Positions 34,111 through 50,283 of a stretch of 64,000 nucleotides of DNA are shown piece by piece. The DNA lies in NCBI RefSeq assembly GCF_900129455.1, contig NZ_FQVU01000001.1:186001-250000 (forward strand). The letters are read 5' to 3'. The notes beneath the pieces are model-generated. The model was given only the letters and a program-made list of their open reading frames with translations, did not search any database and was not told where the DNA came from. The first letter of the stretch is position 1. Each line of letters begins with the position of its first letter. This stretch comes from Jatrophihabitans endophyticus (lineage in GTDB: Bacteria; Actinomycetota; Actinomycetes; Mycobacteriales; Jatrophihabitantaceae). The position numbers and the translations under genes are program-made.

Positions 34111-34158
34111 CGGTTTTGGCGGCAGAGCGCAACATGCTGCGCTCTGCCGCCAAAACCG
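34111..34158. repeat. Intergenic palindrome, 21-base arms
   Basis: The left arm 34111-34131 (CGGTTTTGGCGGCAGAGCGC then A) is perfectly repeated in inverse at 34138-34158, with a six-base loop ACATGC. It begins two bases after the carbonic anhydrase stop and lies before the scramblase-like gene's promoter. It could terminate transcription: an A/T patch (TTTT / AAAA) is inside the stem, not after it. Confidence 0.9.
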
Positions 34159-34171
34159 AACGCGGGGCCCC

Positions 34172-34177
34172 TAGGAT
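34172..34177 (+). promoter_or_regulatory. -10 TAGGAT, leaderless promoter
   Basis: TAGGAT lies seven bases before the ATG at 34185. That distance would place the transcription start at or next to the ATG, the leaderless arrangement common in actinobacteria, and no Shine-Dalgarno is present. The same layout recurs at 49791 (bfr), 50307 and 55804. Confidence 0.55.
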
Positions 34178-34184
34178 TTCGCGC

Positions 34185-35015
34185 ATGACGCAGCCCCAGG
34201 CCCCCGCCGGTTGGTACGCAGACCCCGCCGGCAAGCACGAGCAGCGCTGGTTCGACGGCACCCAGTGGACCGAGCACGTCCATTCGCACGGACGACAGGG
34301 CATCGACCCGCCCGGCGCCCCGGGTCACGTCCCGACCGTGCAGCGCGACTCGGCCAAGGTGCAGCGCGACGTCCAGCGGGCCGGGCAGGCCGGCACCGCT
34401 GGGTTCCAGGGCGGCGGCAGCATCTTCACCGAGCCGGTGCTGGTGGTGAACCAGAAGGCCAAGCTCATCGAGGTCAACAACGAGTACGCGATCTACGACC
34501 AGAACGCGCGCCAGATCGCGGCGGTGCGGCAGGTCGGGCAGAACGCGCTGAAGAAGGCCGCGCGCCTGCTGACGTCGTGGGACCAGTACATGACCCACAA
34601 GCTGCAGATCGTCGACATGACCGGCACGCCGGTGCTCGCGCTGACGCGGCCGGCCAAGGTCATCAAGTCGCGGATCATCGTCGAGGACCCGTCCGGCCGT
34701 GAGATCGGGCAGATCGTGCAGCAGAACGCGTTCGGCAAGATCCGCTTCGGCCTCGAGTCCGGCGGCCACGCCTACGGCATCATCCAGGGCGAGAACTGGC
34801 GGGCCTGGAACTTCGCGATCAAGGACCACACCGACACCGAGGTCGCGCGCGTCACCAAGACGTGGGAGGGGCTGGCCAAGACCATGTTCACCACGGCCGA
34901 CAACTACGTCGTGCAGATCCACCGTCCGCTCGAGGAGCCGCTTCGCTCGCTCGTGGTCGCGGCGGCGCTGTCGATCGACACCGCGCTCAAGCAGGACGCC
35001 CGCGGCTTCGGCTGA
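34185..35015 (+). CDS. DUF2510 / phospholipid-scramblase-related (LURP-one-like) protein
   Basis: A 276-residue protein. Residues ~8-30 are a DUF2510 motif (APAGWYADPAGKHEQRWFDG followed by TQWTEH). After a polar linker, residues ~90-270 form a Tubby-like barrel region of the scramblase/LURP-one family (TEPVLVVNQKAKLIEVNNEY, AIYDQNARQIAAV, NFAIKDHTDTEVARVTK). DUF2510 is a common actinobacterial N-terminal module of unproven role. The function is unknown; membrane-lipid association is only inferred. The ATG at 34185 gives a leaderless transcript. It is convergent with the HAD gene of the Ter island, five bases away. Confidence 0.75.
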   Translation: MTQPQAPAGWYADPAGKHEQRWFDGTQWTEHVHSHGRQGIDPPGAPGHVPTVQRDSAKVQRDVQRAGQAGTAGFQGGGSIFTEPVLVVNQKAKLIEVNNEYAIYDQNARQIAAVRQVGQNALKKAARLLTSWDQYMTHKLQIVDMTGTPVLALTRPAKVIKSRIIVEDPSGREIGQIVQQNAFGKIRFGLESGGHAYGIIQGENWRAWNFAIKDHTDTEVARVTKTWEGLAKTMFTTADNYVVQIHRPLEEPLRSLVVAAALSIDTALKQDARGFG

Positions 35016-35020
35016 GCCGC

Positions 35021-35830
35021 TCAGCGGATGGGGACGGCGTCACCGACGCGAGCGACGAACCAGGCCACGATCTCCTCGCCCGCCAGCACGCCCTGTGCCT
35101 CGGTCACCACGACGTGCGGGGCGTGCCAACCAGCGGCGACGAGCTCGCCGTGGCGGGCCGCGATGCCCGCGTCGGCGGCGAGCAGCAGGTCGGCGTCGAG
35201 CAGCGAGTCACCGGCGGCGAGGATGTGTCCGGCACCGGCCCGCCGCGCGATCTCGGCCACCGCAGCGCTCTTGGTCAGCGGCCGGGGCACCCAGTAGAGC
35301 TTGCGGCCCTGCAGCGACACCTGCCAGCCGCGCGCGTCGGCCCACGCCGTCTCGGCGGCGACGAACCCGGCCGGCAGGGCGGCGCGGTCGACGACGGCGT
35401 AGCAGAACAGCTCGCTCGCCTCGCGCACCGACAGCGTCCACCCGGGGTCGCACGCGGCCGCGACGTGGGCGCGTACCTCCGGCAGCGCGGCGGCGCCGGC
35501 CAGCCGCCGCCCGACGTCGCGACGCCACGCGTCGTCCGGCTCGCCGTCGACGAGCAGCACGCCGCCGTTGGCCGCGACGGCGTACCGCGGCGGCGGGCCC
35601 GGCAGCGTGATGCGGGCCAGCTGTTCGGGCGTGCGAGTGGTCGTGGGGACGACCACGGCGCGCTCGGCCAGCCCGGCGAAGCTCGTCGCGGCCCGTGCGG
35701 TCATGAACGACGCGTCGGCGTCGCGGTAGCGCTCCACCGCGACGACGGGGACGTCGCCGCCGCCGTAGGCCTCGATGGCGCCCCGTGAGTAGACGAGGGT
35801 GCGGTCGAGGTCCGTCGCGACGAGCGTCAC
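35021..35830 (-). CDS. HAD-superfamily hydrolase of the Ter-linked metabolite set
   Basis: A 269-residue Cof/SPP-like HAD phosphatase. Motif I reads VATDLDRTL (DxDxT), motif III lies in the KSAAVAEI region, and motif IV is GDSLLDADLL. A cap domain fills the middle. The GTG start at 35830 overlaps the PRTase-fusion stop (GTGA), so it is coupled. In published comparative work, HAD phosphatases of this kind travel with PRTases and a CitE-like lyase in Ter stress islands and are proposed to dephosphorylate a nucleoside-like metabolite. That role is inference here. Confidence 0.85.
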   Translation of the reverse strand: MTLVATDLDRTLVYSRGAIEAYGGGDVPVVAVERYRDADASFMTARAATSFAGLAERAVVVPTTTRTPEQLARITLPGPPPRYAVAANGGVLLVDGEPDDAWRRDVGRRLAGAAALPEVRAHVAAACDPGWTLSVREASELFCYAVVDRAALPAGFVAAETAWADARGWQVSLQGRKLYWVPRPLTKSAAVAEIARRAGAGHILAAGDSLLDADLLLAADAGIAARHGELVAAGWHAPHVVVTEAQGVLAGEEIVAWFVARVGDAVPIR

Positions 35831-38202
35831 CGCGCCGTCCGCCCGTCCGCGCCGGTGGCGCCGCGCGTGAAGCGCGGGTGGATGAGCCCGACGCACCGGT
35901 AGGTCAGGCCGGGCACCTCGTGCACCGGAACGCCACGCTGCTCGGCCAGCAGCAACACGTGCGCGAGGTCCTCGGCGGCGCCCGCGCGCACCAGCACCGC
36001 CCACGGCACGCGGCGCAGCAGCACCCGCGTCGTCTCCCCCACCCCGGGCTTCACCAGGGTGACGTCGCCGATCCCGTACTCGGCGCTGATGCGCTCGATC
36101 TCCGCCCAGCCCGCCCACGTCGGGGTGCGGTCGGCGCGTTGCCGCACCGGCCAGTCGGCGTCTACGCGCGCGGTGACGTCGGCGAAGCGCTCGGTGACGG
36201 CGTCGAGGAAGCGGTGCGAGACGTCGGCCGGGGCCAGCTCGCGGTAGAACTTCGCGCCGTGGAACGTGCCCGGCGCGAGCACCCGTCGGTTCAGGACGGT
36301 GCGTGAGACGAGGCCGGAGACCGTCGAGTTCAGGCAGGCGGACGGTACGAGGAAGTCCTCGCGGGTCCCGAACGTCCGCACGCACGAGCCCGGGTCGGCG
36401 AGGACGGCCAGCGCGGGGTCGAAGGCCACGCCCAGCTCGGCCGCCGCAGTCGCGAGCGCGGCCGCGAGCTCGCGCGCGATCGCCCCCTTGCCGGTCCAGC
36501 CGTCGACGAAGACGACCTGGGCGGGGTCGTGGTGCGCGGCGAGCCAGCGCAGCGCGACCGTGTCGATCCCCCGCCCGCGGACGATGCTCACCGCGTGGTG
36601 CGGCACGTCGACCCCGTGCCGGTAGGCCGCCCACCGGCGCATCAGCACACCGACCGGCGTGCCGGCCCGCGCGAGCGAGGCGAGCACCACGCCCGGGCCG
36701 CGCTCGGCCAGCACGATCTCGGTCACGACGCCGACGGCGTGCGCGATGCGCTCGGCACTCGCGTCCAGCGCCGTCTCGAACAACCGCAGGTACGCCTCGT
36801 CCGGTTGGTACTCCACCGGCAACGACTCGGCGTAGTGCGCGCCCCCGGACTGGATCGCCTCCTCCCGCTCCTCGGTCGGCGCCTCCAGCACGACCGCGGA
36901 CAGGTCGGTCAACAGCCACGACACCTCGTCGGCGGCGTAGCTGCCGAATGCGGGCCCACGCAACGGCGCGGGCAGCGGTCGGCGGGTGGGGAGCACAACG
37001 ACGTGCAGCCGATGACAGGTCGCCGACAGCTGCGCCAGCAGCCCCGTGCGCAGCGCTGCGGTGTCGCCGTCCTCGTCGACGACCACGACGACGTCGCTCC
37101 ACGGCTCGGCGCGCGCGACGTTGTACGCGTAGCGGGTGCCGGGTCCGTCGTCCGCCTCGTCGTGGCTGGGGAACGAGAGCACGCTGCGGATCGGGTACCC
37201 GGACTCGTCGAGGGCCATGACAGGTGATCGCGTCGTGCTCGACACCCGCACCGGCACACCCTGCCCCGCCAGCTCGACGCCGATGAGCGTCGGGGCGTAC
37301 ATCAGCTCCTCGGTGCCGAGCACCAGCACGTCGTCACCCAGATCGGGAGCGAGCTGCGCCGCCACCCGTGCGGCCGCGGCTCGCATAGCGCGGGTCTGCG
37401 CAAACGTGACACCGTGCCGCCCGCCGTCGGGCGCGTGCCACCCGTGCGCCACGACGAATCGTGGACTCGTCTGCTCGCCCGGGCGGCATGTCGCTCCACG
37501 ATCGGGTCGGGCGGTGAGCTCCGCGGCCCGGCTCGGGAAGTCGGCGGGCCACTCCACCGAGCCGGCCGACAGCGACACGACGTCGAGCGCGACGCCGAGC
37601 GTGGCGGCGAAGTCCGCGATGGCGGACCGGTCGGCCGCGTCGCGCAGGTCGACCAGCGTGGCCAGGACGTAGTGACGATGCGGGCTCACCGCGTGGAGCG
37701 CGGCGATCGTGTTGCGGGCCGTCCGCCCGGTCGACAACTCGTCGTCGACGAGCACGACCACCTCGGCACGACTCAGCAGCTCGGGGTCCTCGGGCAGCAG
37801 ACGGTGCCCGGTGGCGTGACTGTGCGCCTCCTCGAAGGCCGCGAGATCACGGGCCGTCGCGACCCGCCGGCGCGTCGAGTGCAGGTACGGCGCGCCGAGT
37901 GCCTCGGCGACGCAGTGGCCGAGGCCGGTCGCGGTCTCGGCGAAGCCCAGCACCGCGACGTCCAGGGTCCCGACGACCGCGCGAACCGCGACGCCGAGAT
38001 CGACACCGGCGCCGTGGACCGTGCGGGGATCGACCGGCACGTGCTTGCCGAGGACCGTGGACACGAGCAGGTGGGCGCGCTTGGGGTTGCGTCGCAGGGC
38101 CAGCCCCACGAGCTCCGGCAGCGGCCGACCCGCGCCGACGGCGGTGCGCAGCGCCACCCCGAACCGCTCGGCGACCCACGCGCCGTCCCACGTCCCGTCC
38201 AC
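35827..38202 (-). CDS. Phosphoribosyltransferase-TRSP-StiP/PRTase-PELOTA-like fusion protein
   Basis: A 791-residue multidomain protein. Residues ~30-235 are a phosphoribosyltransferase with the PRPP loop VVVLVDDELSTGRTARNT. Residues ~270-400 are the TRSP region, with the name-giving SSTTRSPV. Residues ~440-690 match the StiP/PRTase-like family: QSGGAHYAESLPVEYQP, VRGRGIDTVALRW, and VVFVDGWTGKGAIARE as a second PRPP-type loop. The last ~90 residues (PGVGETTRVLLRRVPWAVLV onward) resemble the PELOTA-like module. In many genomes PRTase-TRSP and StiP are separate genes; here they are fused. It overlaps the HAD gene and follows the CitE-like gene by 15 bases. Confidence 0.85.
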   Translation of the reverse strand: MDGTWDGAWVAERFGVALRTAVGAGRPLPELVGLALRRNPKRAHLLVSTVLGKHVPVDPRTVHGAGVDLGVAVRAVVGTLDVAVLGFAETATGLGHCVAEALGAPYLHSTRRRVATARDLAAFEEAHSHATGHRLLPEDPELLSRAEVVVLVDDELSTGRTARNTIAALHAVSPHRHYVLATLVDLRDAADRSAIADFAATLGVALDVVSLSAGSVEWPADFPSRAAELTARPDRGATCRPGEQTSPRFVVAHGWHAPDGGRHGVTFAQTRAMRAAAARVAAQLAPDLGDDVLVLGTEELMYAPTLIGVELAGQGVPVRVSSTTRSPVMALDESGYPIRSVLSFPSHDEADDGPGTRYAYNVARAEPWSDVVVVVDEDGDTAALRTGLLAQLSATCHRLHVVVLPTRRPLPAPLRGPAFGSYAADEVSWLLTDLSAVVLEAPTEEREEAIQSGGAHYAESLPVEYQPDEAYLRLFETALDASAERIAHAVGVVTEIVLAERGPGVVLASLARAGTPVGVLMRRWAAYRHGVDVPHHAVSIVRGRGIDTVALRWLAAHHDPAQVVFVDGWTGKGAIARELAAALATAAAELGVAFDPALAVLADPGSCVRTFGTREDFLVPSACLNSTVSGLVSRTVLNRRVLAPGTFHGAKFYRELAPADVSHRFLDAVTERFADVTARVDADWPVRQRADRTPTWAGWAEIERISAEYGIGDVTLVKPGVGETTRVLLRRVPWAVLVRAGAAEDLAHVLLLAEQRGVPVHEVPGLTYRCVGLIHPRFTRGATGADGRTAR

Positions 38203-38217
38203 GCCCGACAGCCTGGC

Positions 38218-39393
38218 CTACGGGTGCAGGCTCGCGTCGAGGAGGTCGACGAACGAGGTCTCCTCCCGCGCCACGCCGAACGTCCGTGCCCGCAGCAGCG
38301 TCCGCTGCGCCCACGCCGTGTGCGGTTTGCTCTCGTTCATCTTGTTGCCGTAGCTGGACGCGGCCGCCCCGCCCGCGCCGTCGGTGGCCAACACGTCCGT
38401 CGCGTCGGCGAACTCCTCGGACGTGACCACGGACAGGGCGTGGACCGCCGCCACGTGCCGGGGGTGGATCACCGTCTTGCCCGACAGCCCGTTGGCGCGG
38501 TCGAGGACGATCTCGCGCAGCAGGCCGTCGAGGTCGGCACCGATGATCTCCGAGCGGAGCCCGCGGTCGGCGTGCGCCACGAACGGCGACTCGCGCAGCT
38601 GCGGCTTGAACAGGCGTTCCGCCGCGGCGAAGTACTCCCACACCGGGCCGGTGACGACGTACGAGCCACCGGCGACCCGGCCGAAGACGTTGACGACGGC
38701 CGAGATCGCGTCGGCCACGACGCGGACGTCCCACACCGTGAGGTCGGGCGAGCGGCGCAGGCCGTAGGCACCCGAGAGGTCCGTGGCACCGATGCGCACC
38801 GCGGGTACGAGGTGCCGGTACTTGTCGACCAGGCGCCGCGTGGCGAGCAGGTTGTCGATCCGCGACTCGACGTAGGCCACCTGGGGTGACTCGAGCACCG
38901 GCATGACGAGCAGCCGGTGACCAGTGGCACCGCTCGCGGCGACGACCGCCTCGAGGAACGGGACGCCGGTCTCCTCGTCGAACTTGGGCACCACGAAACC
39001 GGTCAGCACGCGCACCGCGTCGTCGAGCGCGGCGACGAGCGTCGGGACCTGCCCGTCGTGGCGGACCCGCACGAAGATCATCGGCAGCGTCGTCGGGTCG
39101 GCGGCCGCGGCCAGCTCCCGGAGTTGCGCGACCACGTTGTGCTCGGCGGCCGCGAGCTCGCCGTCGGGCACGGAGTCCTCGAGGCACACGACGACGCTCG
39201 TCACGCCCTGCGCGGACCGCCGCACGATGTCGCGGGCGAGCGCGGGCCGGGTACCCGGGCAGTACAGGGTCGCCCCCAGGCCCACGCCGACGAGTGCGAG
39301 GTCGTCGGCGGGGCCGAACTCCTCGGGCCGGCGCAGGAAGAGGCGCTCCCGGTCGTCCTCGCCGAGGTAGTCGAAGTGCCGCATCCGCGGCAT
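38218..39393 (-). CDS. CitE/HpcH-HpaI-type C-C bond lyase (Ter-linked)
   Basis: A 391-residue TIM-barrel lyase of the Ter-linked CitE-like family. The metal/acid motif is VVVCLEDSVPDGE. FVVPKFDEETG, LVMPVLESPQVAYVE, DLSGAYGLRRSPD, VIHPRHVAAVHAL and ASSYGNKMNESKPHT follow. It is proposed in the literature to make or break a C-C bond in the precursor of a nucleoside-like metabolite; the substrate is unknown. The ATG at 39393 starts MPRMRHFDYLG; the next ATG (39384) is also possible. It is the first gene of the minus-strand lyase-PRTase-HAD operon and is divergent from the first terD. Confidence 0.87.
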   Translation of the reverse strand: MPRMRHFDYLGEDDRERLFLRRPEEFGPADDLALVGVGLGATLYCPGTRPALARDIVRRSAQGVTSVVVCLEDSVPDGELAAAEHNVVAQLRELAAAADPTTLPMIFVRVRHDGQVPTLVAALDDAVRVLTGFVVPKFDEETGVPFLEAVVAASGATGHRLLVMPVLESPQVAYVESRIDNLLATRRLVDKYRHLVPAVRIGATDLSGAYGLRRSPDLTVWDVRVVADAISAVVNVFGRVAGGSYVVTGPVWEYFAAAERLFKPQLRESPFVAHADRGLRSEIIGADLDGLLREIVLDRANGLSGKTVIHPRHVAAVHALSVVTSEEFADATDVLATDGAGGAAASSYGNKMNESKPHTAWAQRTLLRARTFGVAREETSFVDLLDASLHP

Positions 39394-39459
39394 GATGCCA
39401 CGCCGACATGTCCGCGGTGTGGCGTCGCGGCACACGGTGTTCTGGCACGATCCGGGGGC

Positions 39460-40194
39460 ATGACCCAGATGCAGATGGGCAGCAACCTCACCCTGCCCGC
39501 CGGGCCCGTGCGCGTGACCCTGCGGTGGGCGGGCGGGACGGCGGGCATCCCGGACGTCGACGCGTCCGCGCTGTTGCTGCAGTCCTCCGGCGTCGTCGCG
39601 ACCGACGCCGACTTCGTGTTCTACAACCAGCCCGAGCATCCGTCGGGCGCCGTCCGCGTCGTCGCGCGGGCGACCGCGACCGAGTACCCGATCGACGTAA
39701 ACCCGGCGCGACTCCCGGCGACGACCGACCGGGTGGTGGTCGCCGCGTCCGCCACCGGGGGGACGTTCGGTCAGGTGCCGGGGCTCGAGGTCGTCGTCAC
39801 GGAGCTGACCGGGGGCGCCGTCGTCGCCACGTTCGCCATGCACGCCACCGAGGAGACCGCGTTCGTCTGCGCCGAGATCTACCGCCGCGGCGACACCTGG
39901 AAGTTCCGCGCCGTCGGCCAGGGGTACGCGTCCGGGCTCGCCGGGCTGGCGCGGGACTTCGGGATCAGCACCGCCGAGTCGCCCGCTGCGGCGCCGCCTC
40001 CCGCGGCGCCGCCTCCCGCGGCGACCCCGCCTCCCGTTGTGACCCCGTTCCCCGCTGCGGCCCCGCCTCCCGCTGCGGCACCGGCCGCACCTGCGGTGGC
40101 ACCACCTGCGGCACCGCCGTCCGCACCACCCGCCGCACCGCGCGTCCCGGCCGGCAACGCCCTCGACCTCGACGCGCCCTGGCCGCCCCGCTGA
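39460..40194 (+). CDS. TerD-family protein with proline-rich tail
   Basis: A 244-residue protein. Residues ~1-175 are a TerD domain ([56 protein letters not shown]). In place of the calcium-binding GDNLTGxGxGDDE loop of standard TerD, it reads VVARATATEYPIDVN, so metal binding at that loop is probably lost. The C-terminal ~65 residues are Pro/Ala-rich repeats. The ATG at 39460 is eight bases after a possible -10 (CACGAT), with a G-run between, so it may be leaderless. It is divergent from the lyase gene with a 66-base shared promoter region. Confidence 0.85.
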   Translation: MTQMQMGSNLTLPAGPVRVTLRWAGGTAGIPDVDASALLLQSSGVVATDADFVFYNQPEHPSGAVRVVARATATEYPIDVNPARLPATTDRVVVAASATGGTFGQVPGLEVVVTELTGGAVVATFAMHATEETAFVCAEIYRRGDTWKFRAVGQGYASGLAGLARDFGISTAESPAAAPPPAAPPPAATPPPVVTPFPAAAPPPAAAPAAPAVAPPAAPPSAPPAAPRVPAGNALDLDAPWPPR

Positions 40195-40241
40195 CCACGC
40201 GCGCCTCGACGCCGCACAGCCGAGTAGGAGACTCTGCGACC

Positions 40242-41495
40242 ATGACGACGATCGCCAAAGGCGGCAACCTGCCCATCGACGCCCCGGCGGTGCGCGCCGT
40301 GCTCTCGTGGCGCGGCGGCGCCGGCGTGCCCGACGTCGACGCCTCGGCGTTGCTGCTGGAAGCCTCCGGTGTGGTCTCCGCAGACCACGACTTCGTGTTC
40401 TTCAACCAGCCGCAGCACCCGAGCGGCGCCGTTCGCCACCTCGGCAAGAACGGCACCGCCGACGCCCTGGACGTCGACCTCGCCGCGCTGCCGGGCACCG
40501 TCGAACGGGTCGTGCTCGCCGCGTCGGCCGACGGCGGCACGTTCGGCCAGGTGCCGGACCTGCGTCTCGTCGTCACCGACCTGGCCTCCGGTGCCCCGCT
40601 CGCCGAGTTCGCCCTCGACGCCGGGAGCGAGACCGCGATCGTCAGCGGGGAGCTCTACCGCCGCAACGGGCAGTGGAAGTTCCGCGCCGTCGGGCAGGGT
40701 TACGACTCCGGGCTCGCCGGGATCGCCACCGACTTCGGCATCAGCGTCGACGACTCACCGGCGCCGCCGCCCGCCGCGCAGTACCCACCGCCACCGCCGC
40801 CGCCCGCCGCGCAGTACCCACCGCCGCCGCCCGCCGCGCAGTACCCACCGCCACCGCCGGACGCGGCGCAGTACCCGCCACCACCCCCGCCGCCGGGGGC
40901 GCCGTCGCCGGCAGTCAACCTCGACAAGGGGCGGGTCAGCCTGGTCAAGGGCCAGCGGGTGAGCCTGGTGAAGACCGGCGCGCCGCCGCTGCGCCGCGTG
41001 ACGATGGGCCTCGGGTGGGACCCCGCGGCGCGCGGCAAGAAGATCGACCTCGACGCGTCGGTCGTCGCGTACGACCAGGCCGGCAAGAAGCTCGAGATCG
41101 TCTGGTTCATGCACCTCAAGGAGTTCGGCGGCGCGATCAGGCACACCGGCGACAATCTGACGGGGAAGGGCGAGGGCGACGACGAGCGGATCGACATCGA
41201 CCTGTCCGCGCTGCCGCCCCAGGTCGCGTCCCTCGTCTTCACCATCACCTCGTTCGGCGGTCAGAAGTTCACCGAGGTGGCCAACGCCTTCTGCCGCCTG
41301 GTCGACGCCGAGACGCGCACCGAGCTCGTCCGCTTCGACCTGACCGACTCCGAGCCGGCGAGCGCGGTCCTCATGGCGATGCTGCGCCGCCAACCCGACG
41401 GCTCGTGGGAGATGCGCGCCATCGGCGAGTTCCACAAGGCCCGGACGGTGAAGAAGCTCGTCGACCCCGGCGCCCGGCACGCCACCGCCCCCTGA
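40242..41495 (+). CDS. Double TerD-domain protein with AAQYPPPP linker
   Basis: A 417-residue protein with two TerD domains. The first (residues ~1-175) lacks the acidic calcium loop (HLGKNGTADALDVDLA instead). A linker at ~178-220 has four AAQYPPPP-type repeats. The second domain (~230-417) has an intact loop, [20 protein letters not shown]. It may tether a degenerate and a metal-binding TerD unit. It follows the preceding terD by 47 bases on the same strand and ends convergent with the TerA-like gene. The ATG at 40242 fits the family start. Confidence 0.87.
   Translation: MTTIAKGGNLPIDAPAVRAVLSWRGGAGVPDVDASALLLEASGVVSADHDFVFFNQPQHPSGAVRHLGKNGTADALDVDLAALPGTVERVVLAASADGGTFGQVPDLRLVVTDLASGAPLAEFALDAGSETAIVSGELYRRNGQWKFRAVGQGYDSGLAGIATDFGISVDDSPAPPPAAQYPPPPPPPAAQYPPPPPAAQYPPPPPDAAQYPPPPPPPGAPSPAVNLDKGRVSLVKGQRVSLVKTGAPPLRRVTMGLGWDPAARGKKIDLDASVVAYDQAGKKLEIVWFMHLKEFGGAIRHTGDNLTGKGEGDDERIDIDLSALPPQVASLVFTITSFGGQKFTEVANAFCRLVDAETRTELVRFDLTDSEPASAVLMAMLRRQPDGSWEMRAIGEFHKARTVKKLVDPGARHATAP
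40761..40898. repeat. Imperfect tandem repeat coding the AAQYPPPP linker
   Basis: Four copies of a CCGCGCAGTACCCACC-type unit at variable spacing code AAQYPPPP segments between the two TerD domains. Confidence 0.85.
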
Positions 41496-41583
41496 TCCGT
41501 CCTGTCGATCCTCCGGCACCACACGACGCCCGGCACCCGAGACGCAGGACGATCGCGCCACCCGGCCGCGAGGGTGCGAACGA

Positions 41584-42624
41584 TCAGTCGACGGGGGTGC
41601 GTCCGTCGCGCCAGGTGATGCGCCCGAAGCCGTAGGCCCGGGCCGCCTCGCGCACGTCGCCGTCGATCGTCTCGAGCTCGGCACGGACGACGAGCTCGCC
41701 GTCCATGTTGTAGATCGTGGTCAGCATCGCGATCCGCCCGGCGTAGAGGCGTTCGAGCGGGACCTCGAGCCGGCTGCCGCCGAACAGGGTGAGGACGAGG
41801 GTGCCGCCCCACCGCAGCTCGGCGCGCGACTGCGAATACGCGTAGACGGCGAGCCGTTCGAGGTCGCGCGTCTGGCGCAGGTCGATTCCCAGTCGCTCGT
41901 ACTCTTCACGCGAACCGACGAGGACCGGTCGGCGCGACGACGGCCCGAATCGGCTGCCGTCGGCGTGCTGGACCACGCCGCTGCCGCCCGAGCGCAGCTG
42001 GTAGGCCGCGCCGAGCCGGAGGTCGCCGACCTCGGCCGAGCACACGGCCTCGATGTCGAGCGACCCCACGCCGGACTGCACCCGGGTGAGCGTCACCGTC
42101 GGGTCGGCGACGGTCAGGATCCGTTGCTCGCCCGCGCCGACGCGCGCGACGTGGCTGCGCTCCCACGCCGAGGGCGGCGACACCGCGGGTCCGGCGGTCG
42201 CCGGGGTAGCGGGCGGCGCCGCGGGGGCGGACGAGGAGGCCGTCGGCGCGGGCGGGTCGGAGAGGTCCAGTGAGCTGCTCGACGCCGGCGGCGGTGCCGC
42301 CGGTGCCGCCGGTGCCGCCGGTGGCGCGGCAGGCGCCGGGGCTGTGGCGCCCGGCGGGGCGGCGGCGCCGTGATGGTGGTAGTCCACCGCGTCGTGCCCG
42401 GCCGGGGTGCGGTCCCGCCGGGTGTAGTCGATGGTCGGCGTGCCGCTTTGTGCCGTCGGTGCCGTCGGTGCCGCCGTCGGCGTCGGTGTCGGCTCCGCCG
42501 CCGCACGCGTCGTTGGCTCGGACGCCGCCGGAGCCGAGGGCGTCGCCGCTCGTTTGGGGCGGCCGCGGCGGCGCAGGAAGGTCAGATCGGCTCGGGCGGG
42601 CGCGAACCTGGGGTCGGTGATCAC
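41584..42624 (-). CDS. TerA-family protein with long disordered N-terminus
   Basis: A 346-residue protein. Residues ~1-155 are low-complexity (Ala, Pro, Thr, Ser) with DYTRRDRTPAG and DYHHHG motifs. The C-terminal ~190 residues match the C-terminal TerA region: VSLxx-like strands, GSLDIEAVCSAEVGDLRLG, GGSGVVQHADGSRFGP, LVLTLFGGSRLEVPLERLYA and MDGELVVRAELETIDGDVRE. TerA proteins accompany TerD and are thought to act at the membrane with TerC and TelA-type proteins. The start is GTG at 42624, ten bases after the terD stop. Confidence 0.82.
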   Translation of the reverse strand: MITDPRFAPARADLTFLRRRGRPKRAATPSAPAASEPTTRAAAEPTPTPTAAPTAPTAQSGTPTIDYTRRDRTPAGHDAVDYHHHGAAAPPGATAPAPAAPPAAPAAPAAPPPASSSSLDLSDPPAPTASSSAPAAPPATPATAGPAVSPPSAWERSHVARVGAGEQRILTVADPTVTLTRVQSGVGSLDIEAVCSAEVGDLRLGAAYQLRSGGSGVVQHADGSRFGPSSRRPVLVGSREEYERLGIDLRQTRDLERLAVYAYSQSRAELRWGGTLVLTLFGGSRLEVPLERLYAGRIAMLTTIYNMDGELVVRAELETIDGDVREAARAYGFGRITWRDGRTPVD

Positions 42625-42634
42625 GGCGCGCCGG

Positions 42635-43210
42635 TCACAGCGGCACGCCGTAGTCGCTGGCGATGCCGCCGATGCCCTGGGAGTAGCCCTGGCCCAGCAC
42701 CTTGAACTTCCACTCGTCCTGCCCGGACGCGCGATGCCGGTAGACCTCCCCCAACGCGACCGCGGTCTCCCGGTCGAAACCGGTGGCGAGCTCCTCGGAC
42801 CGGACGAGCTCGGCGTTGCCGTCGAGGTTCAGCACCCGGATCGCACACGAGCGCAGCTGCCCGAGCGTGCGACGCTGCGCGGGGCCCTCGTTCACGTACA
42901 GCACGCAGACGATCCGCTCGATGTCACCCGGCACGGCGGCGAGGTCGACCTCGATCTGCACGTTGTCGTCGCCGAGCGCCTGCTCCAGCTGCTGCACCGA
43001 CAGCTCGGCCGACGCGATCTGGTTGAAGAAGACGAAGTCGCGATCCGAGCGCACCCGCCCGCTGTGGTCGCACAACAGCGCCGCGAACACCAGGTTGTCG
43101 TCGAGGACGCGCTCGGACCCGGCATTCCACTTCGCCCCGAGCACGAGCCCACGCAGGTTGGGGATCTCGCGCGTCAGCGAGACGTTCGCGCCTCGTGTCA
43201 TCTCGGCCAT
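42635..43210 (-). CDS. TerD-family protein, divergent metal loop
   Basis: A 191-residue TerD-type protein. It opens MAEMTRGANVSLTREIPNLR and keeps the SDRDFVFFNQ strand and WKFKVLGQGYSQGIGGIASD at the C-terminus. The standard GDNLTGxGxGDDE loop is replaced by ELSVQQLEQALGDDN, so calcium binding there is doubtful. It lies between the 169-residue unknown gene and the TerA-like gene, all on the minus strand with gaps of about ten bases, probably one operon. The start ATG at 43210 could instead be the next ATG (43201). Confidence 0.87.
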   Translation of the reverse strand: MAEMTRGANVSLTREIPNLRGLVLGAKWNAGSERVLDDNLVFAALLCDHSGRVRSDRDFVFFNQIASAELSVQQLEQALGDDNVQIEVDLAAVPGDIERIVCVLYVNEGPAQRRTLGQLRSCAIRVLNLDGNAELVRSEELATGFDRETAVALGEVYRHRASGQDEWKFKVLGQGYSQGIGGIASDYGVPL

Positions 43211-43223
43211 CGTGCTGTCAACC

Positions 43224-43733
43224 CTAGAGATCGAGGTCGGATCGGCTGAACTTGGTCCGCAGGAAGTTGCCCTGCGTGAAGATCGCGTCGACGTCGTGGT
43301 CGCGGGCCGCCGCCAGCAGGTCGTCACCGGCGCTCGACAGCGCGTCGAGCTGTTCGCGCAGGGCGGCCCGCGGCGTGCGTCCGGACGGCCCGACGCGGTC
43401 GGTCAGCGACTCGTCCAGGGCCAGATAGGTGCGCAGCGTCGTCGGCAGGTAGTCACCGACGATGCCGTTGATGGAGACCACGGTGTAGACGTCGAGATCC
43501 CGGTCGGCCGAGGTGTCGATCACCTCGCGGATCGTGTCGGTGATGCCGCGGGCGAGCACCACCGCCTCGACGGGCAGCGAGCCCGCGTTGGCATTGATGA
43601 AGCGCACGAGCTCCCACTGCCGCCCCAGCAACCGCTCCGGCGAGTCGTCGGGGTCGGTCCCGCCCGGGCCGGCCGCGGGGGCCGGCCCGTCGGGCGGCGT
43701 CTCCTGGCGCCCGCGGCGGAACCACGAAGCCAT
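43224..43733 (-). CDS. Unknown protein between TelA and TerD
   Basis: A 169-residue protein I do not recognise. It begins with a basic, tryptophan-containing N-terminus (MASWFRRGRQE) and a Pro/Gly/Ala-rich segment. A helical, acidic body follows: LLGRQWELVRFINANAGSLP, TDTIREVIDTSADRD, INGIVGDYLPTTLRTYLAL and LDALSSAGDDLLAAARDHD. No signal, membrane segment or catalytic motif is visible. Its constant position directly after telA (six-base gap) and before terD suggests an accessory Ter factor, perhaps binding TelA's coiled-coil region. That is inference from position. Confidence 0.8.
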   Translation of the reverse strand: MASWFRRGRQETPPDGPAPAAGPGGTDPDDSPERLLGRQWELVRFINANAGSLPVEAVVLARGITDTIREVIDTSADRDLDVYTVVSINGIVGDYLPTTLRTYLALDESLTDRVGPSGRTPRAALREQLDALSSAGDDLLAAARDHDVDAIFTQGNFLRTKFSRSDLDL

Positions 43734-43739
43734 GCCGCG

Positions 43740-45005
43740 TCAGCGGCCGGGCAACTGGTTCGGGTTCGCCGCGCCGAACTCGGCGGTGTTGCCCTCCTGC
43801 TGTCGGGTGCGTTCGAGGTAGGGCTTCGCGCGCTCGATCTGCCCCTCGAGCGCGGTGACCGTCTGCGACATGCTGTCGACGGCCTGCGAGCGGAAGGTGT
43901 CGAGCGCGTCCATCGTCTGGAACACGTTGTCGAACGCGGCCTGCAGCTTCTGCACGTCGATGGTGCTGCTCGCGGCCTGCTCGTTGATCTGCGCGCCCTG
44001 CACCCGCAGCTGCTGCGAGGTGGACTCGATCAGATTGGACGTCGTCGTGTTCAGCGCCGTGATCTGGTCGAGGACGAGCTTCTGCCGGGCCAGCGCCTGC
44101 GAGACGATCACCGCGGTGCGCAGCGCCGACACCGTCGTCGTCTGCGCCCGGTCGACGCCCTTGATCAGCTCGAGGTTGTTCTTGCGGACGAGGTCGAGGG
44201 CCATGTAACCCTGCACCGACACCGCCATCTGGGTCATGATGTCCTGCCGCCGCTGCCGTACCGCGAACAGCGCGTCGGACTTCAGGGTGTTGGCGGCCTC
44301 GCTGTTGCCGGCGGCCTCCAACTCGGCCACCTTCTGCGTCAATGCCTCGTCGAGGGCACCGGCGAGCTGGTTGTACTCGCTGAGCTTGCCCATCGTCGTC
44401 CACATGTTCTGCTTCTCGGTCTCGATCGCGGCGTTGTCCTTGCGCAGGTCGTCCTGGCCGGATTCGAGGGACTTGATGATCGCGTTGAGCTGGGTCTGGG
44501 CCGACTCGTATTTCTGGAAGTACTTGCGGATCCGGTCGCCGCCCGGGATCCACTTGAGCACCCGCTTCGCCCCGGTGAGATCGGCGCGGTTCGGGTCGAG
44601 GTCGGTGACGACGTTGCGCAGCTCGTTGAGCGTGGACGCGACGCGGGTCTGCGCGTCGCCGCCGGCACCCTGCTGCGCCTTGATGACGGCGGCGGGACGG
44701 TCGAGCATCCGGTTGGAGACGTTCGCCGACGCGCGCAGGTCCTTGTCCCCCATCGAGGTGATGGTGTCGAGCTTCTGCGAGAACTCGGGGGTGCGGTGGT
44801 CCATGCCCGCGAGCTCGTTGGCGAAGGCCGAGGCACGCTGCGCCAGCTCGGTCTTCTTCGCGTCCTCGAGGGGCACCGCCCCGGCGACCTGCTCGTCCTT
44901 CACGACCTGCACGGGTGCCGGCGGTGCGAGGACGAGCCCGCCGGCCGGCGCGGCCGCCGGTGTGCCCGCGGGGGTGGCGGTCGAACCCAGGTCCAACTCG
45001 GACAT
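43740..45005 (-). CDS. telA: Toxic anion resistance protein TelA
   Basis: A 421-residue TelA-family protein. The first ~55 residues are low-complexity, and the rest is long helical, coiled-coil-like sequence with the family pattern RVLKWIPGGDRIRKYFQKYE, QMAVSVQGYMALDLVRKNN and QLRVQGAQINEQA. TelA (KlaA-like) is linked to resistance to toxic oxyanions and, in Ter islands, is proposed to be a membrane-associated component. The ATG at 45005 has GAGGAG seven bases upstream. It precedes the 169-residue unknown gene by six bases. Confidence 0.93.
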   Translation of the reverse strand: MSELDLGSTATPAGTPAAAPAGGLVLAPPAPVQVVKDEQVAGAVPLEDAKKTELAQRASAFANELAGMDHRTPEFSQKLDTITSMGDKDLRASANVSNRMLDRPAAVIKAQQGAGGDAQTRVASTLNELRNVVTDLDPNRADLTGAKRVLKWIPGGDRIRKYFQKYESAQTQLNAIIKSLESGQDDLRKDNAAIETEKQNMWTTMGKLSEYNQLAGALDEALTQKVAELEAAGNSEAANTLKSDALFAVRQRRQDIMTQMAVSVQGYMALDLVRKNNLELIKGVDRAQTTTVSALRTAVIVSQALARQKLVLDQITALNTTTSNLIESTSQQLRVQGAQINEQAASSTIDVQKLQAAFDNVFQTMDALDTFRSQAVDSMSQTVTALEGQIERAKPYLERTRQQEGNTAEFGAANPNQLPGR

Positions 45006-45092
45006 GTCGCGACTCCTCGATGTGGCTCTCGATGCGTACGGATCAGATTAACGCGCCAACGTGCGGTGCCCCCGCGGACGTTCCGGGACGGC

Positions 45093-45974
45093 CTACTTGC
45101 GACCGGCGGTCCAGTTCATTCCCCAGCCGTACGCCTCGTCGAGCGCGCGCTGGGCGCCGTTGAGGTAGTTCACCTCACGCTGGATCACGAGCTCGCCGTT
45201 GTTGTTGATCAGCTGCGCCACGGCGCAGATGCGGGCGCCGTCACGCGGGTCGTCGAGGCGCACCTCGATCGGCGGCGCACCGACCGGGTAGATGGTCAGC
45301 AGCCCGTCGGCGCTCGCCCAGTTCGCCGCCCCCTCGTAGATGAGGGCGAACACGAGGACCCGCCGGATCTTGGCGACGTCCTGCAGGTTGATCGACATGT
45401 TCTCGCCGCCGCTGACGGCACCGGAGCGGTCGTCGCCGTCGAGGCTGATGAGCACCTCGCCGGTGGTGCGCATGTCGGCCTGAAACGCGTTGCCGAGGGC
45501 CTGGACGACCCCCTTGCTGCCGTCGGCGAACTCGTACAGGCAGCCGAGGTCGAGGTCGAGCTGGGTGTTCTTGCGGAACAGCCCCTTCTGCTGCTGGGGG
45601 CGGGCGTTCCAGTTCAGGTTGACGCGTAGTACGCCACCCTGACCGCCGTGCTTGCGCAGGGACACCGCCGGCGCCGACTTGGTCAGGGTCACCTTCGACA
45701 GCGACACCCCGGGCTGCTGCTGCGGCTGGCCACCCTGCTGCGGGTAACCGCCCTGCTGCTGCGGCGGCGGGTAACCGCCCTGCTGCGGCGGCGGGGGCGG
45801 CGGGTAACCGCCCTGCTGCGGCGGCGGAGGCGGTGGGTAGCCACCCTGCTGCGGCGGAGGAGGCGGATAACCGCCCTGCTGCGGCGGCGGAGGCGGTGGG
45901 TAGCCACCCTGCTGCGGCGGCGGGGGTTGCGCGGGCGGCGGGCTCGCCGGTCGCTTGGTGTAGTCGATTCCCAT
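45093..45974 (-). CDS. TerA-family protein with QQGGYPPPPPP repeats
   Basis: A 293-residue protein. It starts MGIDYTKRP, and residues ~12-88 are QQGGYPPPPP-type tandem repeats. The globular part (from ~90) matches TerA: SLSKVTLTKSAPAVSLRK, VLRVNLNWNARPQQQKG, DLDLGCLYEFADGSKGVVQA, VSGGENMSINLQDV, LLTIYPVGAPPIEVRLDDP and INNNGELVIQREVNYLNG. The ATG at 45974 is seven bases after AGGAGG. The Pro-Tyr-Gly-rich part may be an interaction or condensate-type segment, which is inference. It lies between DUF475 and telA on the same strand. Confidence 0.9.
   Translation of the reverse strand: MGIDYTKRPASPPPAQPPPPQQGGYPPPPPPQQGGYPPPPPQQGGYPPPPPPQQGGYPPPPPPQQGGYPPPQQQGGYPQQGGQPQQQPGVSLSKVTLTKSAPAVSLRKHGGQGGVLRVNLNWNARPQQQKGLFRKNTQLDLDLGCLYEFADGSKGVVQALGNAFQADMRTTGEVLISLDGDDRSGAVSGGENMSINLQDVAKIRRVLVFALIYEGAANWASADGLLTIYPVGAPPIEVRLDDPRDGARICAVAQLINNNGELVIQREVNYLNGAQRALDEAYGWGMNWTAGRK
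45718..45930. repeat. Tandem repeats coding QQGGYPPPPPP units in TerA
   Basis: Several units of about 30-33 bases containing GGGTAACCGCCCTGCTG or GGGTAGCCACCCTGCTG (plus strand) code QQGGYPPPPP on the minus strand. Unit length varies by three-base steps (four to six prolines). Confidence 0.85.
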
Positions 45975-46003
45975 TGCGATGCCTCCTGGGGCGGGTGGAG
46001 CGG

Positions 46004-47116
46004 TCAGACTTCGACGGCCTCGGGCTGCCGGTCGGGCGCGTCGTCGGCACGCTTGTTGCGCACCAGCGACGACACGAAGGCCAGGCCGATGAAGCCGACG
46101 CCGATGAGGCCGGTGACGACCTCGGGCACCTCGTACTCGATCGTGACGAGCAGGATGACCGCCAGGGCGCCGATGGCCCAGAGCGCACCGTGCTCGAGGT
46201 AGACGTACTCGCTCAGCGTGCCCTTCTTGACCAGGAACACGGTGAGAGAGCGGATGAACATCGCGCCGACGCCCAGGCCGATCGCGATGATGATCGGGTC
46301 GGACGTGATGGCGAACGCACCGACCACGCCGTCGAAGCTGAACGACGCGTCGAGCACCTCCAGGTACAGGAAGAGGAAGAACGCGGCCTTGCCGACGACG
46401 TGCGTCGCCTTCGGCTTCGCCGGCGTGGTCTCGTCGCCGTCCTCGTCCTCGTCCTCGTCGACGTCGAAGAACTCGCCGAGCCCGTTCACGAGCAGGTAGG
46501 TGCCGATGCCCAGCACGCCCGACACCAGCACCGTCGAGATGCGCTGATGCGTCGCGGTGTCGGCCTGCTCGCCGAAGGTGTAGGCCGAGACGGCCAGCAC
46601 GGCCAGCGCGATGACGACGGAGAGCTGGTCGAGCTTGCCGATCTTCTGCAGCGGCCGCTCCAGCCAGGTCAGCCAGGTGATCTCGCGCTCCTCGAAGACG
46701 AAGTCGAGGAAGAGCATGAGCAGGAACATCCCGCCGAACGCGGCGATGGCCGGGTGGGCCTGGTGCAGCAGGTAGCCGTAGGTGCCCGGATCCTCCGGCT
46801 TGCCCTTCTCCAGCGCGAGCCGCACGGCCTCGACCGGGTTCAGCTTCGCGGTGATCCCGACGATGAGCAGCGGGAACACGAGCCGCATGCCGAAGACGGC
46901 GATGATCACGCCGATGCTCAGGAAGATCTTCTGCCAGAACGGGCTCATCCGCACCAGCACCGTCGCGTTGACGACGGCGTTGTCGAACGACAGCGAGACC
47001 TCGAGGATCGCGAGGATCGCCGTCAGCGCCAGTCCGGTCGTGCCGCCGTAGAGGAAGCCGAGGACGAGGCCGACGACGGCGATGCCGAACGACCAACCGA
47101 AGGTACGGAGGAACAC
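46004..47116 (-). CDS. DUF475 integral membrane protein (TerC-like)
   Basis: A 370-residue polytopic protein of the DUF475 family, related to TerC. About nine hydrophobic segments are present. The paired motifs LAILEVSLSFDNAVVNA near the N-terminus and LEVLDASFSFDGVVGAFAI in the second half are the internal duplication with acidic residues in the membrane, as in TerC. A highly acidic loop DVDEDEDEDGDE lies between them. It may export or sense metal ions, probably as the membrane part of the Ter complex. The start is GTG at 47116. A strong hairpin lies between it and the preceding terD. Confidence 0.9.
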   Translation of the reverse strand: MFLRTFGWSFGIAVVGLVLGFLYGGTTGLALTAILAILEVSLSFDNAVVNATVLVRMSPFWQKIFLSIGVIIAVFGMRLVFPLLIVGITAKLNPVEAVRLALEKGKPEDPGTYGYLLHQAHPAIAAFGGMFLLMLFLDFVFEEREITWLTWLERPLQKIGKLDQLSVVIALAVLAVSAYTFGEQADTATHQRISTVLVSGVLGIGTYLLVNGLGEFFDVDEDEDEDGDETTPAKPKATHVVGKAAFFLFLYLEVLDASFSFDGVVGAFAITSDPIIIAIGLGVGAMFIRSLTVFLVKKGTLSEYVYLEHGALWAIGALAVILLVTIEYEVPEVVTGLIGVGFIGLAFVSSLVRNKRADDAPDRQPEAVEV

Positions 47117-47142
47117 GCGCGCTCCCGCGAGTTGAGGGTGGT

Positions 47143-47178
47143 GTCGGGCTACCCGCCGGTGCCGGCGGGCGGCCCGAC
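47143..47178 (-). terminator. Strong hairpin between terD and the DUF475 gene
   Basis: GTCGGGC (47143-47149) pairs with GCCCGAC (47172-47178), and inside it CCCGCCGG (47152-47159) pairs with CCGGCGGG (47162-47169). The long stem lies 27 bases before the DUF475 start. No T-run follows, so it is either a partial terminator that sets terD above the downstream genes or an mRNA-end stabiliser. Confidence 0.5.
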
Positions 47179-47182
47179 CCGA

Positions 47183-47761
47183 TCAGCCGACGTTGACGCC
47201 GAAGTCCTGCGCGATGCCGCGCAGGCCGGTGCTGTAGCCCTGGCCCACGGCCCGGAACTTCCACTCGGCGCCGTTGCGGTACAGCTCGCCGAAGATCATG
47301 GCCGTCTCGCTCGACGCGTCCTCGGACAGGTCGTAGCGGGTGATCTCGTTGTTGTCGGCCTGGTTGACGACGCGGATGAACGCGTTCCGCACCTGGCCGA
47401 AGGACTGCTGGCGCCCCTCGGCGTCGTAGATCGACACGGTGACGACGATCTTCTCCGCCTCGGCGGGGACGCCGGCCAGGTTGACCTTGATGGCCTCGTC
47501 GTCGCCCTCGCCCTCGCCAGTCAGGTTGTCGCCGGTGTGCTCCACCGAGCCGTCCGGGCTGGTGAGGTTGTTGAAGAAGATGAAGTGCTGGTCGGACAGG
47601 ATCTTGCCGTTGCTGCCGACGAGCAACGCCGACGCGTCGAGGTCGAAGTCCTGCCCGCTCGTGGTGCGGGCGTCCCACCCGAGACCGACGAGGACGGCCG
47701 TCAGGCCCGGGGCCTCCTTGGTCAGCGAGACGTTGCCGCCCTTGTTGAGACTGACGCTCAT
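47183..47761 (-). CDS. TerD-family calcium-binding stress protein
   Basis: A 192-residue canonical TerD. It reads [40 protein letters not shown], the calcium loop [20 protein letters not shown], and [19 protein letters not shown]. TerD domains bind calcium and act in stress, tellurite and phage responses. The ATG at 47761 lies four bases after GGAGGAG. It is nearly a duplicate of the upstream terD (47833-48408), clearly a tandem duplication, and forms one operon with it. Confidence 0.95.
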
Positions 47762-47832
47762 GTGCTCCTCCGATGCGGTGAGTTGGCGGACCGTCGTGGC
47801 AGGTCGCCGCGCGGTCGATGCTGCCGGACGGG

Positions 47833-48408
47833 TCAGACGCTGACGCCGAAGTCGCCGGCGATACCGGCCAGGCCGGCGCTGTAGCCCTGACCCACGGCCC
47901 GGAACTTCCACTCGGCGCCGTTCTTGTACAGCTCCCCGAAGATCATCGCCGTCTCGGTGGAGGCGTCCTCGGACAGGTCGTAGCGGGCGATCTCGGCGTT
48001 GTCGGCGCGGTTGACGACGCGGATGAAGGCGTTGCGGACCTGCCCGAAGGACTGGCCGCTGGCGCCGGCCTCGTAGATCGACACGGGGAACACGATGCGC
48101 GCGGCCTCGGCCGGCAGCGACCCGAGATCGACGGTGACCTGCTCGTCGTCGCCGCCGCCCTCGCCGGTCAGGTTGTCACCCGAGTGGGAGACCGCGCCCT
48201 CCGGCGAGGTCAGGTTGTTGAAGAAGATGAAGTGCTTGTCGGTGAGCACCCGACCGTCGGCGTTGCACACGATCGCGCTCGCGTCGAGGTCGAACTGGGC
48301 GCCGTCGGTGGTGCGGGCATCCCACCCGAGGCCGACGACGACAGCGGTCAGACCCGGCGCCGCCTTGGTGAGGGAGACGTTGCCACCCTTGGTGAGACTG
48401 ACGGTCAC
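47833..48408 (-). CDS. TerD-family calcium-binding stress protein
   Basis: A 191-residue canonical TerD, closely similar to its neighbour at 47183-47761. It reads [46 protein letters not shown] (calcium loop) and [19 protein letters not shown]. The start is GTG at 48408 with AGGAG four bases upstream. A TAGGGT -10 lies about 37 bases before it. It is probably the first gene of the long minus-strand terD-terD-DUF475-terA-telA-unknown-terD-terA run. Confidence 0.95.
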
Positions 48409-49753: not shown

Positions 49754-49790
49754 GCCGCCACCGGGTGTCGTCCCGATGACGGCGCGGACC

Positions 49791-49796
49791 TAGTAT
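49791..49796 (+). promoter_or_regulatory. bfr: -10 TAGTAT of a leaderless bfr promoter
   Basis: TAGTAT lies seven bases before the bfr ATG, and no Shine-Dalgarno is present. This places the transcription start at the ATG and gives bfr its own promoter apart from the iron-boxed bfd promoter. Confidence 0.6.
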
Positions 49797-49803
49797 CGGC
49801 GCC

Positions 49804-50283
49804 ATGCGTGGCGACGAACGGGTCCTCGAGTTCCTCAACGAACAGCTGAGCGCCGAGCTCACGGCGATCAACCAGTACTTCCTGCACGCGAAGATGCAGG
49901 ACAACTTCGGCTGGGTGAAGCTCGCGAAGTACACCCGGGCCGAGTCGATGGACGAGATGCGTCACGCCGAGGTGCTGACCGACCGCATCCTGCTGCTCGA
50001 CGGGCTGCCCAACTACCAGCGGCTCTTCCCGTTGCGCATCGGCCAGAACGTCCGGCAGATGTTCGAGGCCGACATGGCGGTCGAGGCCGAGGCGATCGAC
50101 CGGCTCCGGCGCGGCATCGACTACATGCGCTCGGTCTCCGACGTCACCAGCGCCAAGCTGTTCGAGGCGATCCTCGCCGACGAGGAGCACCACATCGACT
50201 ACCTCGAGACGCAGCTGCGCCTGCTCGACCAGGTCGGCGAGCAGCTCTACCTCGCCCAGCAGCTCGAGCAGCCCGCGAGCTGA
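49804..50283 (+). CDS. bfr: Bacterioferritin
   Basis: A 159-residue haem-binding ferritin of 24 subunits. The ferroxidase residues can be read at the family positions: E18 (SAEL), E51 and H54 (MDEMRHAE), E94 (VEAEA), and E127 and H130 (DEEHHID). M52 in MDEMRH is the haem-ligand methionine. It stores iron(III) and limits oxidative damage. It follows bfd by 50 bases and has a separate leaderless-type promoter. Confidence 0.97.
   Translation: MRGDERVLEFLNEQLSAELTAINQYFLHAKMQDNFGWVKLAKYTRAESMDEMRHAEVLTDRILLLDGLPNYQRLFPLRIGQNVRQMFEADMAVEAEAIDRLRRGIDYMRSVSDVTSAKLFEAILADEEHHIDYLETQLRLLDQVGEQLYLAQQLEQPAS

Follow-up and report, generated by a model that had tools for sequence, protein, structure and literature searches.

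What do the enzymes encoded within Ter stress islands make, and is the StiP domain found among them a cysteine protease, as its name says? The question is raised by a 13.4-kb Ter island (35021-48408) in a 64,000-nucleotide stretch of the Jatrophihabitans endophyticus genome (contig NZ_FQVU01000001.1, positions 186,001 to 250,000; G000:C1:186001-250000 in our numbering), referred to here as the window. The source genome is 4.48 Mb, 98.5% complete, with a GC content of about 73%. The island holds genes for a lyase, a phosphoribosyltransferase (PRTase) fusion, a HAD phosphatase and TerD, TerA, TelA and DUF475 proteins. All of the genes and strands named in a preliminary description of this DNA were confirmed by Pfam and profile searches; its PRTase fusion was also found, but StiP and PELOTA_1 had been left unnamed there, and the protein is a four-domain fusion, PRTase_2-TRSP-StiP-PELOTA. 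The enzyme motifs are intact, StiP and a PRTase share one polypeptide, and the same genes are kept together in other genomes. We read the locus as an intact actinobacterial Ter stress island in which StiP would be a second PRTase and a ribosylated product would be linked to the Ter membrane system. The probability of this reading is put at about 0.55; its odds overlap with those of the rival explanations weighed below, which share its first steps.

Protease label and predicted fold of StiP

Pfam family PF11202 (StiP) carries the name cysteine protease. StiP matches were found in 2567 of 72,556 PLSDB plasmids; among the 40 matches listed, 39 were annotated, every one as 'cysteine protease StiP', and the StiP gene of phage ME3 has been deposited as 'phosphoribosyl transferase'. 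Within the library searched, no paper on StiP function was listed. In the published reading of the module, a base is turned into a free nucleoside-like signal by PRTase_2, HAD and the lyase, with or without an ATP-grasp enzyme, and StiP-Pelota acts further downstream as an independent cysteine protease with an RNA-binding domain. This account has on its side the Pfam name, the plasmid annotations and the good conservation of two Cys columns and His238 described below, and passages of later papers restate the nucleoside-like product.

Thirty-seven StiP sequences were compared, 33 from the window's phylum and one each from Klebsiella, Rhizobium, Mycolicibacterium and phage ME3. Twenty-one residues were invariant, none of them Cys or His. 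The best-kept Cys columns were Cys197 (33/37) and Cys213 (31/37), and His columns were well kept (32-34/37; His238 34/37). A single conserved catalytic Cys would be expected of a cysteine protease, yet none of the Cys columns was invariant in these sequences: Cys197 and Cys213 are both absent from phage ME3 and the divergent loci L047-L049, and Cys213 is also absent from Klebsiella and Rhizobium. The StiP model, described below, matches PRTases. We consider the published reading, with StiP as a protease, unlikely.

Two motifs, RAGxP (R102-A-G-x-P106) and D[GS]WT[GS][KG]G (D157-x-W-T-x-x-G163), were each present in 37/37 StiP sequences. Judged from strand order, they would sit at the presumed pyrophosphate (PPi) and 5-phosphoribosyl 1-pyrophosphate (PRPP) loops of a type I PRTase.

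Modelled alone with AlphaFold, StiP gave a predicted local distance difference test score (pLDDT) of 88.5 and a predicted template modelling score (pTM) of 0.90. The three best matches of this model in the structure comparison VIA were 8a0c (Z 12.3), 8a0m (11.9) and 7shg (11.5), with a root mean square deviation (rmsd) of 3.6-3.7 over 192-197 aligned residues and aligned StiP spans reaching the end of the domain (58-272 for 8a0c and 8a0m, 62-272 for 7shg). All three are solved PRPP-dependent polysaccharide ribofuranosyltransferases. PyrR and HPRT came next, at Z <=9.8, and among the 50 VIA matches listed 50/50 were PRTase-fold proteins, a count by which families outside the listing cannot be excluded. 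Foldseek gave PyrR as the best match (E 6e-4), and 46 of the 50 matches it listed were PRTase-fold proteins, with one further match bearing no telling name (7f06). The PRTase fold predicted for StiP is backed by these two structure comparisons and not by sequence profiles.

The solved enzymes closest to StiP by VIA are CriT of Bcs3 (8a0c) and a Thermobacillus enzyme (7shg). Excerpts of the publications on these enzymes give PRPP as donor and a HAD partner; a HAD gene is adjacent in the Ter module, but the profile of that protein points to trehalose phosphatase, with neither 8a0c nor 7shg among its listed matches. Unlike them, StiP carries PELOTA and sits in a Ter island rather than a capsule locus, and no sequence match joins it to either. 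With the type I PRTases PyrR and HPRT, StiP and PRTase_2 have the PRTase core in common; StiP differs from them in having extra N- and C-terminal segments and no vicinal DD pair. The structures of these ribofuranosyltransferases became public in 2022-2023; the link between StiP and these enzymes therefore cannot date from 2012, although Anantharaman et al. may in that year already have counted StiP as a PRTase.

The rank of PyrR in Foldseek also suits another explanation, by which StiP is a non-catalytic PRTase fold that binds a nucleotide as PyrR does, contacts RNA through Pelota, and exerts control over the operon or over translation. In line with this explanation, StiP has Gly in place of the second Asp of the DD motif, and a PELOTA match follows StiP in all 6 StiP proteins scanned whole (below the Pfam cut-off in L047 and L048) and in the 32 complete islands. 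However, the presumed PPi and PRPP loop residues are invariant (37/37), and VIA places catalytic ribofuranosyltransferases over PyrR by Z 1.7-2.5. A purely regulatory StiP has, in our judgement, a real but lesser chance of being correct.

A number of results weigh against StiP as a second PRTase and against the wider reading of the island. The vicinal DD of the PRPP loop is absent from StiP, the window having one acid and a Gly (D157-G158); according to excerpts of PMC10299916, the capsule enzyme CriT likewise has no such pair. The well-kept Cys and His columns may point to a role for Cys in part of the family. In Foldseek, 8a0c came no higher than 47th (E 0.012), and isomerase-type folds made up 3 of the 50 listed matches. 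The StiP profile found nothing meaningful among PDB sequences. Against a generic PRTase profile, built from 18/30 loci after 12 were dropped in which the PRPP loop was not found by motif search, StiP gave P 0.016, with controls at 0.11 (lyase), 0.25 (HAD) and 0.18-0.87 (ten shuffled profiles). Against the PRTase_2 profile of the same fusion it gave P 0.18, a value no better than shuffled profiles reached, and the alignment was out of register; with a smaller set of StiP sequences, P was 0.079 and the PRPP loops did line up. Pribosyltran yielded sub-threshold matches to two divergent StiP proteins alone (E 0.06 and 0.28). By sequence comparison alone, StiP is not demonstrated to be a PRTase. 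Among the PDB matches of the Ter HAD profile (E up to 1), neither 8a0c nor 7shg appeared, and TerB had no match in the whole genome at E 1e-3.

Enzymes of the module and the proposed reaction

By PDB profile the lyase is CitE-like (3qll, E 9e-10), with matches to citrate lyase beta and malyl-CoA lyase. Within the 791-residue fusion, Pfam placed PRTase_2 at 31-214, TRSP at 259-392, StiP at 420-669 and PELOTA at 696-775, and an AlphaFold model of the whole protein had pLDDT 85.0 and pTM 0.74. Residues 22-217 of the model match the APRT fold, with 5zc7_A at Z 14.4 (rmsd 3.4, 176 aligned), and the PRPP-loop motif DDE-x-S/T-S/T-G-x-T was present in 27/27 PRTase_2 sequences, the window included. TRSP showed a weak resemblance to the first part of PRTase_2 in profile comparison (P 5e-4), the only prominent value, those against HAD (0.031) and generic PRTases (0.049) being near-equal; the DDxxxTG loop was found in 0/24 TRSP sequences. 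TRSP may be a degenerate PRTase_2-like duplicate.

The HAD protein had no significant Pfam or NCBIfam match (Pfam S6PP at E 0.33). It was assigned because the motifs DxDxT and GDxxxD occur in 24/24 sequences, the window included, and because trehalose phosphatase is its nearest solved relative by PDB profile (6d3v/6cj0, E 8e-24). Residues D7, D9, T11, T64, T65, K187, G207, D208 and D212 are invariant in the 24 sequences. Trehalose phosphatase is an enzyme acting on a glycosidic sugar phosphate.

Because the module combines two PRTase-fold domains with a neighbouring HAD, its product is best read as a ribosyl compound that derives from PRPP and has been dephosphorylated. The lyase would make or cleave a small acceptor; PRTase_2, with its canonical PRPP loop, would transfer ribose-5-phosphate to it from PRPP; StiP, a PRTase by predicted fold and not a protease, would put ribose-5-phosphate on a second acceptor or on the first product; and the HAD enzyme would take off the 5-phosphate. 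In this way the biosynthetic part (lyase, two PRTase-fold transferases and HAD) would be tied to a membrane part formed by the DUF475/TerC-type protein, TelA, TerA and several TerD proteins, the product signaling to, or being sensed by, a TerD/TerA/TelA membrane complex. Removal of the 5-phosphate by a HAD phosphatase after transfer is described for ribofuranosyltransferase systems in excerpts of PMC10299916, PMC11127046 and PMC12096443, and a Klebsiella case of this kind in part of PMC11231755.

Because the solved relatives nearest to StiP by predicted fold ribosylate hydroxyl groups of polysaccharides, the acceptor could be something other than a base. Possible acceptors are a base, the one in the published proposal, an alcohol or a sugar, and, given the PELOTA domain, RNA; the nucleoside-like metabolite proposed in the preliminary description is a possible product. 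A bolder version, which we hold to be quite improbable, would have StiP-PELOTA as a hydroxyl-directed PRPP transferase acting on an O-acceptor, possibly RNA, with HAD trimming the phosphate, so that the module would serve to ribosylate RNA or glycoconjugates during stress, and StiP would be mislabelled as a protease on plasmid records. For such chemistry on RNA there is a precedent in Rit1 of yeast, the initiator tRNA 2'-O-ribosyl phosphate transferase.

Conservation of the island and its partner genes

Strong PF15617 matches (E <1e-100) were obtained in 24 of 61 genomes searched, counting the window's own. Among 396 genomes of the phylum, 20 contained StiP, 19 of them above the family cut-off. 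Thirty-eight neighbourhoods were fetched: every one of the 23 relatives whose lyase match was strong contributed one, and the other 15 came from further StiP genomes; three of the 20 StiP-positive genomes (G107, G210, G369) lie outside this set. Window-type islands were present in 35/38 neighbourhoods and held all six domains in 32/35, the three incomplete ones (L035, L040, L041) ending at a contig edge. A second set of named loci, the best 80 of 566 relatives and mostly Streptomyces, showed the enzyme set as in the window: all six domains occurred in 75/80, and in the remaining 5 the locus starts at the end of a contig. PRTase_2 and StiP shared one open reading frame (ORF) in 72/75 complete named loci; in the 32 complete islands they lay in one stop-to-stop ORF in 24 and in neighbouring ORFs in 7, frame breaks leaving L015 unresolved. 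Since loci were retrieved through the lyase or StiP, the adjoining PRTase and HAD are an independent result, and the recurrence of the gene set in other genomes means that it is not due to chance. At L023 the lyase faces the remaining genes. The divergent loci L047-L049 have StiP and PRTase_2 with TerD genes, no lyase or HAD match, and no SACLNSTVSG stretch.

This conservation also bears on a further alternative, in which the island is no more than a cluster for resistance to tellurite or metals and its enzymes only repair or salvage metabolites. The TerD, TerA, TelA and TerC-type genes around the enzymes would fit it. The enzyme set is nevertheless kept together in many Actinobacteria, and partly or wholly in Proteobacteria plasmids and in one phage; general salvage genes would not need such co-conservation, which therefore counts against this alternative, and we regard it as very unlikely.

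The preliminary description had noted that ATP-grasp, TerB and vWA partners are not in the window, which was borne out, and had proposed a search for them in the rest of the genome. Besides TerB, a Ter-type ATP-grasp was not found: with the enzyme beside the island of the relative G401 as query, the window's genome yielded two 26-bit pieces alone, both in a PIG-L/ATP-grasp/PHP/glycosyltransferase cluster. A vWA-TerF-like gene is present, unlinked, at C2:95908-96540; neither TerB nor vWA belongs to the enzyme module itself. The ATP-grasp gene at G000:C1:258919, the best PF15632 match of the genome (101 bits, about 24 kb away), was considered as the missing partner and rejected; PF15632 matches 13/14 control genomes, and the gene is flanked by PIG-L and PHP/glycosyltransferase genes and reaches only 26 bits with the G401 Ter-type enzyme. 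The 'hypothetical' protein before the lyase in Mycolicibacterium was likewise discarded as an ATP-grasp, having no Pfam match.

The G401 enzyme was also searched against 30 of the 38 genomes with a strong StiP or lyase match, and matched at E <1e-60 in 11. The match lies on the same contig near the island in six (G401, G407, G409, G414, G420, G433), on another contig of a draft in three (G398, G404, G406) and megabases away in two (G023, G193); the link of ATP-grasp to Ter is clear for the first six because of this proximity. The other 19 had no strong match, six of them being drafts less than 90% complete. The Ter-type ATP-grasp is an optional partner, not a defining one, and the window has the common form without it. 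The possibly reduced or rearranged version suggested for this island is thus nothing special in its lack of the enzyme.

Layout of the island and known relatives

Feature coordinates are collected in Table 1. The fusion and HAD genes overlap by 4 bases, the HAD start codon lying over the fusion stop, and the first plus-strand TerD gene begins 66 bases from the lyase start. In this gap, just 5' of the TerD start at 39441-39452, stands TCTGGCACGATC, which was exact in 6/8 compared sequences (window counted), had one mismatch in the remaining 2, and occurs as a single exact copy within the window; it is a possible promoter or operator candidate. A promoter scan found none, and 5 terminator-like elements were seen against 2.7 expected. 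PADLOC gave zero matches for the 10 island proteins submitted, out of 13.

Table 1. Features of the Ter island, in window coordinates
Feature	Position	Strand	Remarks
HAD phosphatase	35021..35830	-	269 aa; sugar-phosphate (trehalose-phosphatase-like) type, from motif residues and PDB profile matches
PRTase_2-TRSP-StiP-PELOTA fusion	35827..38202	-	791 aa; Pfam PF15609, PF12500, PF11202, PF15608
PELOTA domain, C terminus of fusion	35848..36135	-	PF15608 E 6.6e-34
StiP domain	36157..36972	-	Pfam E 4e-103; predicted PRTase fold
TRSP domain	36988..37455	-	Pfam TRSP E 1.5e-35
PRTase_2 domain	37507..38202	-	Canonical PRPP loop VDDELSTGRT; APRT fold (model)
C-C_Bond_Lyase, CitE-like TIM barrel	38218..39393	-	391 aa; PF15617 E 2e-111
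TerD-domain protein with Pro-rich tail	39460..40194	+	Divergent from lyase; PF02342 E 4e-36
Protein with two TerD domains and Pro-rich linker	40242..41495	+	PF02342, two stretches
TerA-like protein, Pro-rich N terminus	41584..42624	-	13-sequence profile matches TerA, E 1e-5
TerD-like protein	42635..43210	-	PF02342 E 3e-44
Protein adjoining telA, no family name	43224..43733	-	169 aa; conserved in window's family
TelA	43740..45005	-	PF05816 E 8e-87
TerA with QQGGYPPPP repeats	45093..45974	-	28-sequence profile matches Klebsiella TerA, E 4e-60
DUF475/TerC-superfamily membrane protein	46004..47116	-	PF04332 E 1e-131, PF03741 E 1e-20
TerD	47183..47761	-	PF02342 E 3e-86
TerD	47833..48408	-	PF02342 E 3e-81

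TerA was the sole match of the TerA-like protein's profile among the ORFs of the Klebsiella ter region and phage ME3. Pro-rich stretches occur in this protein and in both plus-strand TerD genes. The 169-residue protein had zero Pfam or NCBIfam matches, and kinship with XpaC was not borne out, PF10112 having no match there; by its place beside telA, it may be a TelA partner of an unnamed kind. Its homologues beside telA were found at 12 loci, all in the window's own family. TelA, this protein and the TerA-like protein, all present in the window, scored >60 bits in 1/80 named loci (<=10 kb each side of StiP), and mark the window's own family.

Just past the island is a ferritin-like gene (49780-50280); on the other side, a gene for a scramblase-type protein with a DUF2510 domain (34116-35012) separates the island from a class II tRNA synthetase gene. 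The same genome has two further TerD loci, one with the order TerC-TerD-NicO, NicO being of a nickel-transporter family (L013, G000:C6:161001-180000), and one with an mpaB/rubber-oxygenase-type neighbour gene (L014, G000:C4:14001-34000).

The preliminary description had recognized a published Ter-linked biosynthetic module, and the recognition was correct, since the lyase, PRTase_2-TRSP, HAD and StiP-PELOTA occur together and are linked to TerD, TerA, TelA and TerC-type genes. Anantharaman et al. (2012) reportedly described such a module from enterobacterial ter plasmids. The Klebsiella ter plasmid NZ_CP071820.1 resembles the window in its lyase (by annotation), PRTase_2-TRSP, StiP-PELOTA, TerA, TerD and TerC. 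It differs in having ATP-grasp (PF15632), TerB, vWA and DUF4236 genes, and in encoding PRTase_2-TRSP and StiP-PELOTA as two genes with a 257-residue protein without a Pfam name between them, whereas the window has the fused PRTase-StiP, TelA and DUF475, and neither ATP-grasp nor TerB. A Klebsiella plasmid with a ter module (L163) carries, by annotation, mcr-2.3 and genes for aminoglycoside resistance as well. Jumbo phage ME3 (KU935715.1) shares with the window a PRTase gene matched by the window fusion, a HAD (by annotation), a TerD-like gene, StiP-PELOTA and a DUF475/TerC-type protein; unlike the window, it has no lyase annotated in the stretch, and its StiP is separate. Accounts of the module, or citations of the 2012 work, are found in passages of PMC7824862, PMC8115787 and PMC5512222.

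The Ter module is known, and this locus, in no way unusual, is an ordinary and well-preserved island of an established kind. What gives it value is the fold predicted for StiP. Should StiP prove to be a PRPP transferase, the label 'cysteine protease StiP' would be sending laboratories after the wrong assay. With this fold, the question of what the Ter enzyme module produces becomes one of PRPP transfer by the PRTase_2-TRSP-StiP-PELOTA protein.

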